From: Phytoactinopolyspora alkaliphila
Lineage (GTDB): Bacteria; Actinomycetota; Actinomycetes; Jiangellales; Jiangellaceae
Assembly: GCF_010550695.1 (NCBI RefSeq)
Contig: NZ_JAAGOB010000001.1
Span: 248,001-312,000 of the forward strand
Length of the DNA stretch: 64,000 nucleotides
Direction: 5' to 3'
Part shown: positions 212 to 62,858 of the stretch, piece by piece
Position numbering within the stretch: the first letter of the stretch is position 1
Layout: every line of letters begins with the position of its first letter
The notes under the pieces: model-generated
What the model saw: only the letters and a program-made list of their open reading frames with translations
Database searches by the model: none
What the model was told of the DNA's origin: nothing
Made by a program: the position numbers and the translations under genes

Positions 212-283
212 CCCCTGGCATGGGTTAAGGTCGTTGGAAACGGACATTTCGCCCACGATTGCGACCCTAACCCATGCCAGGGG
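212..283. repeat. 22-bp inverted repeat with 28-nt loop
   Basis: Arms at 212-233 and 262-283 pair at 21 of 22 positions (one A/C mismatch), with a 28-nt loop. It lies 6 bases after the stop of the golvesin-domain gene and 18 bases before the uvrB promoter box, so it could serve as a terminator that shields uvrB, but there is no T-run. The arm length and loop size resemble the other two intergenic palindromes in this window (15180 and 61482). Confidence 0.75.
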
Positions 284-15087: not shown

Positions 15088-15099
15088 GGGAGCGCTCCC
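15088..15099 (-). promoter_or_regulatory. LacI-family operator, proximal copy
   Basis: GGGAGCGCTCCC is a perfect 12-base palindrome with the central CG step typical of LacI/GalR operators. It lies 83 bases upstream of the lipoprotein start codon and about 55 bases (centre to centre) from a second near-identical copy. Confidence 0.75.
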
Positions 15100-15141
15100 A
15101 CACACCGTGCTCGAGTGTTTTCAAGTAATCAAGATCGAGCG

Positions 15142-15155
15142 TGGGAGCGTTCCCA
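15142..15155 (-). promoter_or_regulatory. LacI-family operator, distal copy
   Basis: TGGGAGCGTTCCCA is palindromic apart from the central step and shares GGGAGCG-TCCC with the proximal copy. Spacing of about five helical turns puts both sites on roughly the same face of the helix, which suits cooperative or looping repression of the glucoside operon. Confidence 0.72.
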
Positions 15156-15179: not shown

Positions 15180-15235
15180 CCATGATCATTGGCGATCCTG
15201 TACCTGGACGGGTCTGCGGAGGCCAATGATCATGG
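15180..15235. repeat. Intergenic palindrome with CATGATCATT arms
   Basis: CCATGATCATTGGC (15180-15193) pairs perfectly over 14 bases with GCCAATGATCATGG (15222-15235) around a 28-base loop. It lies between two divergent promoters (sugar operon and uvrC), so a terminator role is unlikely. The AATGATCATG core recurs in the palindrome at 61482. Confidence 0.75.
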
Positions 15236-60660: not shown

Positions 60661-60706
60661 TCACCACCTTTACGTATACACAGTCGAAGTGAGGCATGAG
60701 CAAGCG

Positions 60707-61465
60707 ATGAGCACTCTTGAGATCCGGGACCTGCACGTCTCCGTGGAGGCGGACAACGGTCCGGTGCAGATCCTGCACGGCGTCAACCTGACCGTGAGCA
60801 GCGGCGAGACCCACGCGATCATGGGTCCCAACGGCTCCGGCAAGTCCACTCTGGCCTACGCCTTGTCCGGGCACCCGAAGTACACCGTCACATCGGGCAC
60901 CGTCACGCTCGACGGCGAGGACCTCCTGGACATGAGCGTGGACGAGCGGGCTCGAGTCGGGCTGTTCCTCGCCATGCAGTACCCGGTCGAGGTGCCGGGC
61001 GTCTCGGTGTCCAACTTCCTGCGGACCGCCAAGACCGCTATCGACGGCGAGGCGCCGAAGCTGCGGACGTGGGTGAAGGACGTCAAGCAGGCGATGGCCG
61101 ATCTGCGCATCGACCCGGAGTTCGCCGAGCGCGACCTCAACACCGGGTTCTCCGGCGGTGAGAAGAAGCGGCACGAGATCCTTCAGCTGGAGCTGCTCCA
61201 GCCGAAGTTCGCCGTGCTGGACGAGACCGACTCCGGCCTGGACATCGATGCGCTGCGCATCGTCTCCGACGGCGTCAACCGGTTCAGCGCCAACGGTGAC
61301 AAGGGCGTGCTCTTGATCACGCACTACACCCGGATTCTGCGCTACATCAAGCCGGACCACGTGCACGTGTTCGTGGGCGGCAAGATCGCCGAAGAAGGCG
61401 GCGCCGAGCTGGCCGAGAAGCTGGAAGAGAAGGGGTACGTCGACTACGTCGGCGCCTCTGCCTAA
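60707..61465 (+). CDS. sufC: Fe-S cluster assembly ATPase SufC
   Basis: A 252-residue ABC-type ATPase that drives shape changes in SufB-SufD. Walker A GPNGSGKSTL near residue 40, the Q-loop FLAMQYPVEVPGVSVSNFL near 85, signature FSGGEKKRHEILQ near 148, Walker B KFAVLDETDSGLD near 170 and switch His in LITHYTRIL near 207 are all typical of SufC. ATG 60707 gives the normal N-terminus (MSTLEIRDLHV); a GTG at 60689 in frame has the AGG nearer. Confidence 0.96.
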   Translation: MSTLEIRDLHVSVEADNGPVQILHGVNLTVSSGETHAIMGPNGSGKSTLAYALSGHPKYTVTSGTVTLDGEDLLDMSVDERARVGLFLAMQYPVEVPGVSVSNFLRTAKTAIDGEAPKLRTWVKDVKQAMADLRIDPEFAERDLNTGFSGGEKKRHEILQLELLQPKFAVLDETDSGLDIDALRIVSDGVNRFSANGDKGVLLITHYTRILRYIKPDHVHVFVGGKIAEEGGAELAEKLEEKGYVDYVGASA

Positions 61466-61481
61466 CCAGAACCATTCCCCA

Positions 61482-61567
61482 AATGATCATGTTAACTATG
61501 TTTTCTCGTGCGATACCAGGCCTGCAGGCATGGTGAAGCACGAGAAAACATGGTTTACATGATCATT
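61482..61567. repeat. 30-bp inverted repeat between sufC and sufS
   Basis: Arms 61482-61511 and 61538-61567 pair at 28 of 30 positions (one mismatch and one G-U pair), with a 26-base loop that itself holds GCCTGCAGGC (61520-61529). Both ends are AATGATCATG/CATGATCATT, shared with the palindrome at 15180. The arms are AT-rich compared with the genes around them. It sits inside the suf operon, 16 bases after sufC and 22 bases before the sufS GTG. Confidence 0.92.
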
Positions 61568-61589
61568 CAGGTGTAGCGAGGAGGTTGAC

Positions 61590-62858
61590 GTGGCGGAGCA
61601 GATGCCGAGCCCGCTGGACGTGGACCGGGTGCGCAAGGACTTCCCGATTCTGGAGCGGCGACTCGCCGGGGATCGGGCCCTGGTGTACCTGGACTCGGCG
61701 AACACGTCCCAGAAGCCGCGGCCGGTACTCGACGCTCTGACCGAGCACTACGAGCGGCACAACGCCAACGTCGCCCGCGCCGTGCACCAGCTCGGCGAGG
61801 AGGCCACCTCCGCGTACGAGGGCGCCAGAGACAAGATCGCCGCCTTCATCGGCGCCCCCACCCGCTCGGAGGTGCTCTTCACAAAGAATGCCTCCGAGGC
61901 GTTGAACCTGGTGGCGAACACGATGGCCAGCGGGCTGGCGGAGGATCCGCGCTACCGGCTCGAACCGGGCGACGAGATCGTCATCACCGAGATGGAGCAC
62001 CACTCCAACATCGTGCCGTGGCAACTCGCCGCCCGGCGTACCGGCGCGACGCTGCGGTGGTTCGGGCTCACCGAGGACGGCCGGCTGGACATCGCGGGAC
62101 TCCGGGAGCTGATCAACCCGCGCACCAAGATCGTCTCGCTGGTGCACCAGTCCAACATCCTCGGGACGGTCAATCCGGTCGCCCACGTCGTCGAGCGTGC
62201 CCGCGAGGTCGGCGCGCTCGTGCTGCTGGACGGGGCTCAGTCTGTTCCGCACATGCCGGTGGACGTGACCGAGCTGGGCGTCGACCTGCTGGCGTTCACC
62301 GGGCACAAGCTCTGCGGACCGACCGGCATCGGAGTCCTGTGGGGGCGCGGCGAGGTCCTCGACGGGTTGCCGCCGTTCCTGGGCGGCGGCGAGATGATCG
62401 AGACCGTGGCGATGGACGGCTCCACCTTCGCCCCGATTCCGCACAAGTTCGAGGCGGGCACGCCGCCCATCGCTCAGGCCGTGGGTCTGGGTGCGGCGGT
62501 CGACTATCTGACCGGCCTGGGGATGACGAGCGTGCGCGAGCACGACCGCGCGATCACGGCATATGCGCTGGACCGCCTGCACGGCGTGGACGGGGTGAGC
62601 GTCATCGGGCCGGATTCGATGGTGGACCGCGGTGCCACGGTCTCGTTCACGGTCGACGGCATCCACCCCCACGACGTCGGGCAGGTGCTCGACGAGCAGG
62701 GGGTGGCCGTCCGGGTGGGGCACCACTGCGCGCGCCCGGTGTGCGTGCGCTACGGAATACCGGCGACCACTCGAGCGTCGTTCTACCTGTACACGACCAA
62801 TGCCGAAATCGACGCGCTCGTGGACGGCATCGAACAGGTGAAGAGGTTCTTCGGGTGA
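61590..62858 (+). CDS. sufS: Cysteine desulfurase SufS
   Basis: A 422-residue group II PLP-dependent desulfurase that takes sulfur from L-cysteine. Lys240 in FTGHKLCGPTGIGVLWG binds PLP and Cys380 in VRVGHHCARPVC carries the persulfide; EMEHHSNIVPWQ near residue 132 and DGAQSVPHMPVDV near 213 are also conserved. GTG 61590 follows GAGGAGG. Its stop overlaps sufU, its sulfur acceptor. Confidence 0.96.
   Translation: MAEQMPSPLDVDRVRKDFPILERRLAGDRALVYLDSANTSQKPRPVLDALTEHYERHNANVARAVHQLGEEATSAYEGARDKIAAFIGAPTRSEVLFTKNASEALNLVANTMASGLAEDPRYRLEPGDEIVITEMEHHSNIVPWQLAARRTGATLRWFGLTEDGRLDIAGLRELINPRTKIVSLVHQSNILGTVNPVAHVVERAREVGALVLLDGAQSVPHMPVDVTELGVDLLAFTGHKLCGPTGIGVLWGRGEVLDGLPPFLGGGEMIETVAMDGSTFAPIPHKFEAGTPPIAQAVGLGAAVDYLTGLGMTSVREHDRAITAYALDRLHGVDGVSVIGPDSMVDRGATVSFTVDGIHPHDVGQVLDEQGVAVRVGHHCARPVCVRYGIPATTRASFYLYTTNAEIDALVDGIEQVKRFFG

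Follow-up and report, generated by a model that had tools for sequence, protein, structure and literature searches.

REP-like repeats are known mostly together with RAYT transposases, and MITEs are short, carry terminal inverted repeats and contain no gene. In the available portions of a REP survey (PMC3733652), families tagged by GTAG or CGTC carry the tag at one end, and REPs can lie inside palindromes, GC-rich ones included, as with CCGSSCC(n3,4)GGSSCGG in T. roseum; the terms 'actinobacteria' and 'actinomycet' are absent from its main text. IS1272 of Staphylococcus, which codes for its transposase, replaces inverted repeats without target duplication, as the available part of its report describes (PMC5678879).

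The repeat analyzed here resembles REPs and REPINs in being short, palindromic, present in many copies and mostly intergenic (16 of 132 copies overlap an ORF), and in being built of two inverted repeats able to form one hairpin. It differs from the REPIN/RAYT system, as set out in the accessible text of PMC3116915, in the absence of PF01797 from 18/18 genomes, in carrying TGATCA at both ends and in its fixed lengths of 86 or about 54 bp. The tagged REPs in the portions of PMC3733652 used here are likewise dispersed palindromes, some families lying within other palindromes; their tag stands at one end, whereas TGATCA stands on both sides here. The likeness to IS1272, going by the same part of PMC5678879, lies in the lack of target duplication and in targets that are inverted repeats of unrelated sequence, inverted flanks being strong here in one genome only (G004); unlike our element, IS1272 codes for a transposase; it is reported to replace its target repeat, and PF05598 is absent from the genome studied here. 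Titles and abstract openings among the matches listed from the open PMC subset contained no description of such TGATCA-bracketed elements.

The element was located in a window of 64,000 nucleotides, the whole stretch of Phytoactinopolyspora alkaliphila DNA that we analyzed, where an inverted-repeat search returned two 43-nt arms, 86% complementary and with a spacer of 0, between sufC and sufS (Table 1). GCCTGCAGGC forms the center of the element, and its GC content is 42% against 67.5% for the window. The palindrome reported in the original prediction is therefore real, being a near-perfect 86-bp inverted repeat with a very stable fold: as RNA, the element and its short flanks reached -57.7 kcal/mol compared with -24.4 kcal/mol for shuffles (z -9.9). 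The 30-bp stem proposed at the same time was an underestimate, as the stem spans nearly all 86 bp. The element is separated from the sufC stop by 16 nt and from the sufS start by 22 nt, so that the AGGAGG sequence stays free of the hairpin. Terminator prediction across the element gave no U-tract terminator, and comparison with known RNA families (E up to 10) returned just two miRNA models, far under their thresholds. An attenuator or RNase site, as raised in the original prediction, is a candidate role for the hairpin, which could reduce read-through or block 3'-to-5' decay. At window positions 212-283 there is a further strong inverted repeat, whose 22-bp arms are separated by 28 nt.

Table 1. 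Positions of the palindromic elements, their parts and the adjoining suf genes in the window.
Feature	Position	Strand	Basis
Type A palindromic element, 86 bp, two 43-bp arms	61482..61567		Inverted repeat, fold, multicopy pattern
Type A element plus three flanking bases per side (C-N-R on one, Y-N-G on the other)	61479..61570		Flank composition
Left TGATCA bracket	61484..61489		TGATCA pair 76 bp apart, start to start
Right TGATCA bracket	61560..61565		TGATCA pair 76 bp apart, start to start
Species-specific 8-base box, left arm, TAACTATG (commonest in the same genome: AAACCATG)	61493..61500	+	Box comparison
Species-specific 8-base box, right arm, AAACCATG on the minus strand	61549..61556	-	Box comparison
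sufC, mechanical ORF, stop TAA at 61463-61465	60689..61465	+	TIGR01978
sufS (SufS family cysteine desulfurase)	61590..62858	+	TIGR01979
AGGAGG, probable Shine-Dalgarno sequence of sufS, beyond the element	61579..61584	+	Sequence
Type B palindrome, 54 bp, TGATCA pair 44 bp apart (15183, 15227)	15181..15234		Inverted repeat and TGATCA pair search

The ten-base string AATGATCATG, which had been judged unlikely to recur in paired form by chance, occurs four times in the window against 0.02 expected. A genome-wide count, set beforehand to refute the idea if it found no other copies, yielded 179 occurrences, and its reversed control 0. With the sufC-sufS element as query and E up to 10, BLAST gave at least 80 matches, which lie in both orientations; of 84 candidates, 40 were scored. 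We defined this family, type A, by the pattern AATGATCAYGT-N64-ACRTGATCATT, tolerating at most 2 mismatches in its end boxes. The pattern detected 60 copies in the P. alkaliphila genome and was positive in 17/22 family genomes, with a reversed control of 0; four congeners held 80, 44, 6 and 0 copies, and the remaining 17 family genomes between 0 and 82. Among the matches listed, named records with type A belonged to Phytoactinopolyspora, Jiangella, Actinopolymorpha alba, a Jiangellales MAG and a Sporichthyaceae MAG.

The length of type A is nearly invariant: in a search that allowed 82-90 bp, 132 of the 135 unique copies with flanks measured 86 bp, two measured 85 and one 84. Mean identity among the P. 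alkaliphila copies was 92%. Alignment of 147 copies, in which AATGATCAYGT was fixed by the pattern and the rest was free, revealed an arm that runs from C-N-R-AATGATCAYGT through an 8-base box and a spacer to TCACCAKG near the center; three positions out from the element, C is the base in 100% of the P. alkaliphila flanks and 86% of the others. A profile search of the fetched loci produced 176 non-overlapping matches, 151 of them full by the pattern; the other 25, which include one-cap copies, point-changed copies and copies cut by insertions, were excluded from the length and arm counts. One-cap copies, with TGATCA kept at one end, were observed in several genomes (L030, L061, L062, L064, L068, L071, L077, L103, L119, and L120), and several of them end at model position 83-84 or its mirror.

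Where many copies were compared, the 8-base box is species-specific. Once a mislabelled G009 copy was removed from the P. alkaliphila set, the box AAACCATG was found in 62/68 arms of P. alkaliphila, GAAGTRGG in 51/56 of P. halotolerans, TTGGTACG in 25/28 of P. halophila, and TCAGCASG in 47/48 of J. asiatica; no box dominated among the 4 copies of P. endophytica or the 5 of the set labelled anatolica. The arms stay paired. Among 23 representatives, 85.8% of cells pair, compared with 30-43% in slid registers, and changes on both sides numbered 148 against 59.6 in shuffles, none of 500 shuffles reaching 148, although relatedness inflates these counts. Cells changed on one side in the same set numbered just 24, which suggests that symmetry at the DNA level or joint replacement of the arms fits better than selection on an RNA stem.

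The element is thus multicopy and constant in length, differs in sequence between species, lies near gene 3' ends, lacks target duplications and is present at some orthologous sites only. Our best reading of the finding is a REPIN-like class of TGATCA-bracketed repeats with no RAYT found in 18 genomes. More specifically, the element is probably a small non-autonomous mobile palindrome of fixed length, with inverted arms that open on TGATCA and subfamilies that share bracket and spacing but differ inside, moved by an enzyme acting in trans and inserted at gene-end palindromes. Such an enzyme would recognize the TGATCA-capped arms and would insert the element at GC-rich palindromes, probably terminator-like, near stop codons; once inserted, the element would act as a strong hairpin on both strands, and in suf the insertion would have added such a hairpin between sufC and sufS. 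The REP/MITE-like option of the original prediction stands with regard to dispersal (about 60 copies, subfamilies in relatives, presence and absence at orthologous sites), but neither a RAYT (18 genomes) nor a target duplication accompanies it. Fixed-length palindromes without a RAYT found, with up to 188 pattern matches per genome, would point to another spreading route for short DNA and to a supply of hairpins at the gene ends of actinomycetes; how such an insertion can land within a core operon and persist is illustrated by the sufC-sufS copy. A more far-reaching proposal, which we hold only tentatively, is an undescribed actinobacterial mobile class of two sizes (44/76), moved by a non-RAYT enzyme that reads structure; it would enter the tips of GC-rich gene-end hairpins, supply or cap bidirectional terminators, and have arms that co-evolve with the enzyme in each species.

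Most copies stand a short distance 3' of a stop codon. Gene context was assigned with a simple custom ORF picker. On this basis the 132 type A copies comprised 47 convergent, 58 tandem and 11 divergent positions and 16 overlapping an ORF; the 370 element-free gaps of at least 20 bp in the same loci, taken with relatives' short loci left out and overlapping loci counted repeatedly, comprised 69 convergent, 203 tandem and 98 divergent ones. The median distance from element to stop codon was 10 nt in convergent and 16 nt in tandem pairs, the latter with a median of 61.5 nt to the downstream start, and in 11/58 tandem copies the stop codon lies within the element's own cap. Type B, the shorter relative described below, shares this preference and was distributed as 14 convergent, 18 tandem, 2 divergent and 2 overlapping copies in G004, and as 4, 4, 1 and 2, respectively, in P. 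alkaliphila.

This placement, within tens of bases of stops and often filling convergent spacers, could also reflect bidirectional 3'-end hairpins maintained by the host as terminators or mRNA-stabilizing structures, selected and homogenized by gene conversion and not by transposition. Strong folding, arm pairing maintained by changes on both sides, and occupation of the suf site in several species by copies that differ in sequence all agree with such hairpins. Nevertheless, we consider this explanation unlikely: the stable hairpin 3' of a stop codon expected of an intrinsic terminator is there, but the U-tract after the stem is not; type A counts range from 0 to 82 across the family genomes; the ratio of 148 two-sided to 24 one-sided changes suggests symmetry of DNA, not of RNA; and several orthologous gene ends have no element.

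Comparison of the sufC-sufS spacer among relatives, as had been suggested at the outset, disclosed full copies in P. alkaliphila, G001 and G005, copies with one cap missing in P. halotolerans (G002) and P. endophytica (G003), and none in G004. The suf copies of different genomes differ in their box, which matches the genome's common box in P. alkaliphila (one consensus and one variant box) and in P. halotolerans (for G001 there is one other copy for comparison, for G005 none). Two more sites are shared, namely L113 with P. halophila L197 and L111 with P. halotolerans L221, and all copies there carry the box type of their own genome, as does the P. halotolerans copy at the site shared by L143 and L153. 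A site can therefore persist while its sequence is replaced or homogenized. Some shared sites, suf included, suggest that copies are retained for long periods and do not move freely. There are also orthologous sites with an element in one species and none in the other (L058, L052, L067, and L175), and at two sites type A in one species faces type B in another (P. alkaliphila L267 with J. asiatica L131, and G004 L243 with P. halophila L209), with flanks 72-84% identical; such pairs are few and come mostly from loci fetched for holding an element. No clean empty site at the nucleotide level was seen among the relatives, which are too diverged. In G004, one identical core occurs in 19/48 elements of spacing 43/44 at unrelated loci, a sequence pattern that points to recent spread.

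With regard to insertion, direct repeats at the element borders stayed at the shuffled level in 7/7 sets covering 189 copies (sets of at least 14 copies). Inverted flanks gave a clear signal in G004, whose copies often lie within inverted repeats particular to their locus and where the paired run beyond the CATGATC cap averaged 6.72 nt compared with 3.87 nt in shuffles (z 12, 36 copies) and the longest inverted flank reached 17 nt (L254). No excess run beyond the cap over shuffles was detected for the type B copies of P. alkaliphila; runs about one base above shuffles were obtained for its type A copies (3.35 vs. 2.32) and for A. alba (2.24 vs. 1.39). A second count, run from TGATCA outwards against 500 shuffles and so taking in two bases of the cap along with the CCC/GGG that is commonly conserved, placed flanks of at least 6 nt in 25/48 G004 copies (shuffled mean 14.8, highest 20) and flanks of at least 9 nt in 19/48. 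By the same count, flanks of at least 6 nt were present in 11/36 type A copies of P. alkaliphila (shuffled mean 4.9, highest 11) and 5/15 of its 44 class (shuffled mean 1.0, highest 4), with no clear excess in P. halotolerans (19/28, mean 18.2), J. asiatica (4/25, 3.4), P. halophila (2/14, 2.2) or A. alba (2/25, 1.3). Only G004 thus has a strong signal of inverted flanks, and complementary flanks were rejected as a general rule, which holds for G004 and fails in most type A sets.

Ordinary terminators were rejected as the source of the inverted flanks, as stems in element-free convergent spacers were modestly above shuffles in G004 (6.74 vs. 5.04, n 54, two of which are type B variants or remnants) and in P. 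alkaliphila (6.27 vs. 5.09, n 45). In A. alba these stems were much longer (7.9 vs. 4.5 shuffled, n 22), suggesting that ordinary terminators are plentiful there. Young copies may enter palindromes at their tips where these already exist, or the palindromes may be created by insertion.

The element could alternatively belong to the ordinary MITEs of a DDE insertion sequence with its autonomous copy outside the parts examined, given its terminal inverted repeats, its homogeneous copies and the TG...CA that forms the outer ends of the TGATCA-to-TGATCA unit. We regard this as improbable. Direct duplication does not rise above shuffles, length is constant across genera, no autonomous partner appeared in the loci examined, and the ISL3 and IS30 copies beside or inside elements, judged by eye, have other ends and appear to have inserted later. 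In this respect, an ISL3-type end adjoins the outer edge of the element at four contig starts (L019, L028, L032, and L034, with PF01610 for the L034 fragment only), and an IS30-type sequence splits the element near its center at the P. alkaliphila contig ends L104 and L107 (NF033563 for the L107 fragment only), with the apparent other end of the IS30-type insertion at contig starts L001 and L114. These contacts look like target choice by the ISL3- and IS30-type elements.

A search for a mobilizing enzyme in 18 of the 22 family genomes (all but G007, G010, G012, and G016) found the RAYT/Y1 transposase domain PF01797 in 0/18, the positive control being found in 5/14 named genomes; this absence ruled against RAYT/REP mobilization. 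The IS1272 transposase presumably carries the IS1182-type domain PF05598, and IS1182-type mobilization was also rejected, as that domain is absent from 11/13 genomes, P. alkaliphila (G000) and G004 included, and present in G002 and G015. Among protein clusters common to at least 3 genomes, no recurrent neighboring transposase was recognized by eye, and neither a gene between the arms nor an autonomous element with the same ends was seen within the loci and stretches examined. A phage or plasmid origin was dismissed for lack of matches in phage and plasmid searches; a looser viral pattern hit 2 contigs, where the span was 84 and 80 bp rather than 82, which we took as chance.

The mobile palindrome that we favor has a shorter relative in the same window. 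The original prediction had linked the sufC-sufS palindrome to one at 15180-15235, and this kinship holds insofar as the two share the 10-mer and a TGATCA pair; however, the 10-mer lies in the opposite orientation, the length is 54 bp and the interior is another, so that the second palindrome represents a sister subfamily, type B, and not a copy. From start to start, the TGATCA sites are 76 bp apart in type A and 44 bp in type B. The type B pattern CATGATCATTG-N28-38-CAATGATCATG matched 12 times in P. alkaliphila, 36 times in G004, 12 times in G001 and 0 times in the other 19/22 family genomes. Genome G004 has 0 type A copies by pattern, and its bare 76 pattern gives 2 matches; a third type, TGATCATGAACAC..., is present there in 5 copies within the 400 kb sampled. 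Two GGGAGCGYTCCC-like sites precede the type B palindrome at window positions 15088-15154, and we take them to resemble LacI-type (CebR) operators.

In long stretches of three genomes, spacings of 43/44 and 76 account for almost all of the strongest palindromic TGATCA pairs. Across 400 kb of G004 and 464 kb of P. alkaliphila, window included, TGATCA pairs with a palindrome score of at least 0.85 stand at 44 or 76 only, save one trivial 6-bp overlap, and weaker pairs (score 0.6-0.8) at 13, 15, 18, 21, 43, 44, and 46. In a 400-kb sample of G014, made of 20 stretches of which two were picked around known type A copies, pairs scoring above 0.7 stand at 43, 44, and 76, plus two at 18. The bare pattern TGATCA-N38-TGATCA matched in 21/22 family genomes, with 2-188 matches each and a reversed control of 0; these matches are not all palindromic, as G017 contributes a repeated sequence that is no palindrome and other genomes contribute weak matches. 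A rough off-spacing control (49, with 14 fixed bases rather than 12) matched once in each of 3/22 genomes. Over 296 genomes of the class, a set that contains the 22 of the family, spacing 44 was recovered in 62 (reversed control 1 match in one genome) and spacing 76 in 59 (reversed control 2 matches in one genome). Outside the family most genomes gave 0-2 matches and a few gave many, such as G048 (23, spacing 44), G133 (21, spacing 76) and G256 (12, spacing 76), so the TGATCA-bracketed class is patchy across Actinomycetes. The copies listed for G168 and G256 have the span and the TGATCACGT ends of type A.

Binding sites of a chromosome-organizing or regulatory protein, with the 44/76 spacings placing TGATCA sites on about the same helix face, are an unlikely explanation, although a protein-binding palindrome was among the options of the original prediction: the spacings do differ by 32 bp, or about three helical turns, the boxes are symmetric, the spacers between arms differ in some genomes and variants in G133, of another family, have further internal TGATCA sites, but sister species have very different copy numbers, down to 0 type A in G004 (bare pattern 2), and the divergent spacers in which regulators usually act are depleted.

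Several variants of the bracket were also observed. In G050, of another family, direct and not inverted repeats of TGATCATGCAATCCCGCCACCC surround the 44 and 76 spacings. The G011 copies (L323-L333) follow TGATCAGGTGAC-N26-GTCACCTGATCA with the 44 spacing, have interiors that differ from copy to copy and often lie farther from gene ends. In G133 and G029 the elements measure 82 bp, and each end is a small palindrome that contains a second TGATCA-like site, giving up to four sites per element.
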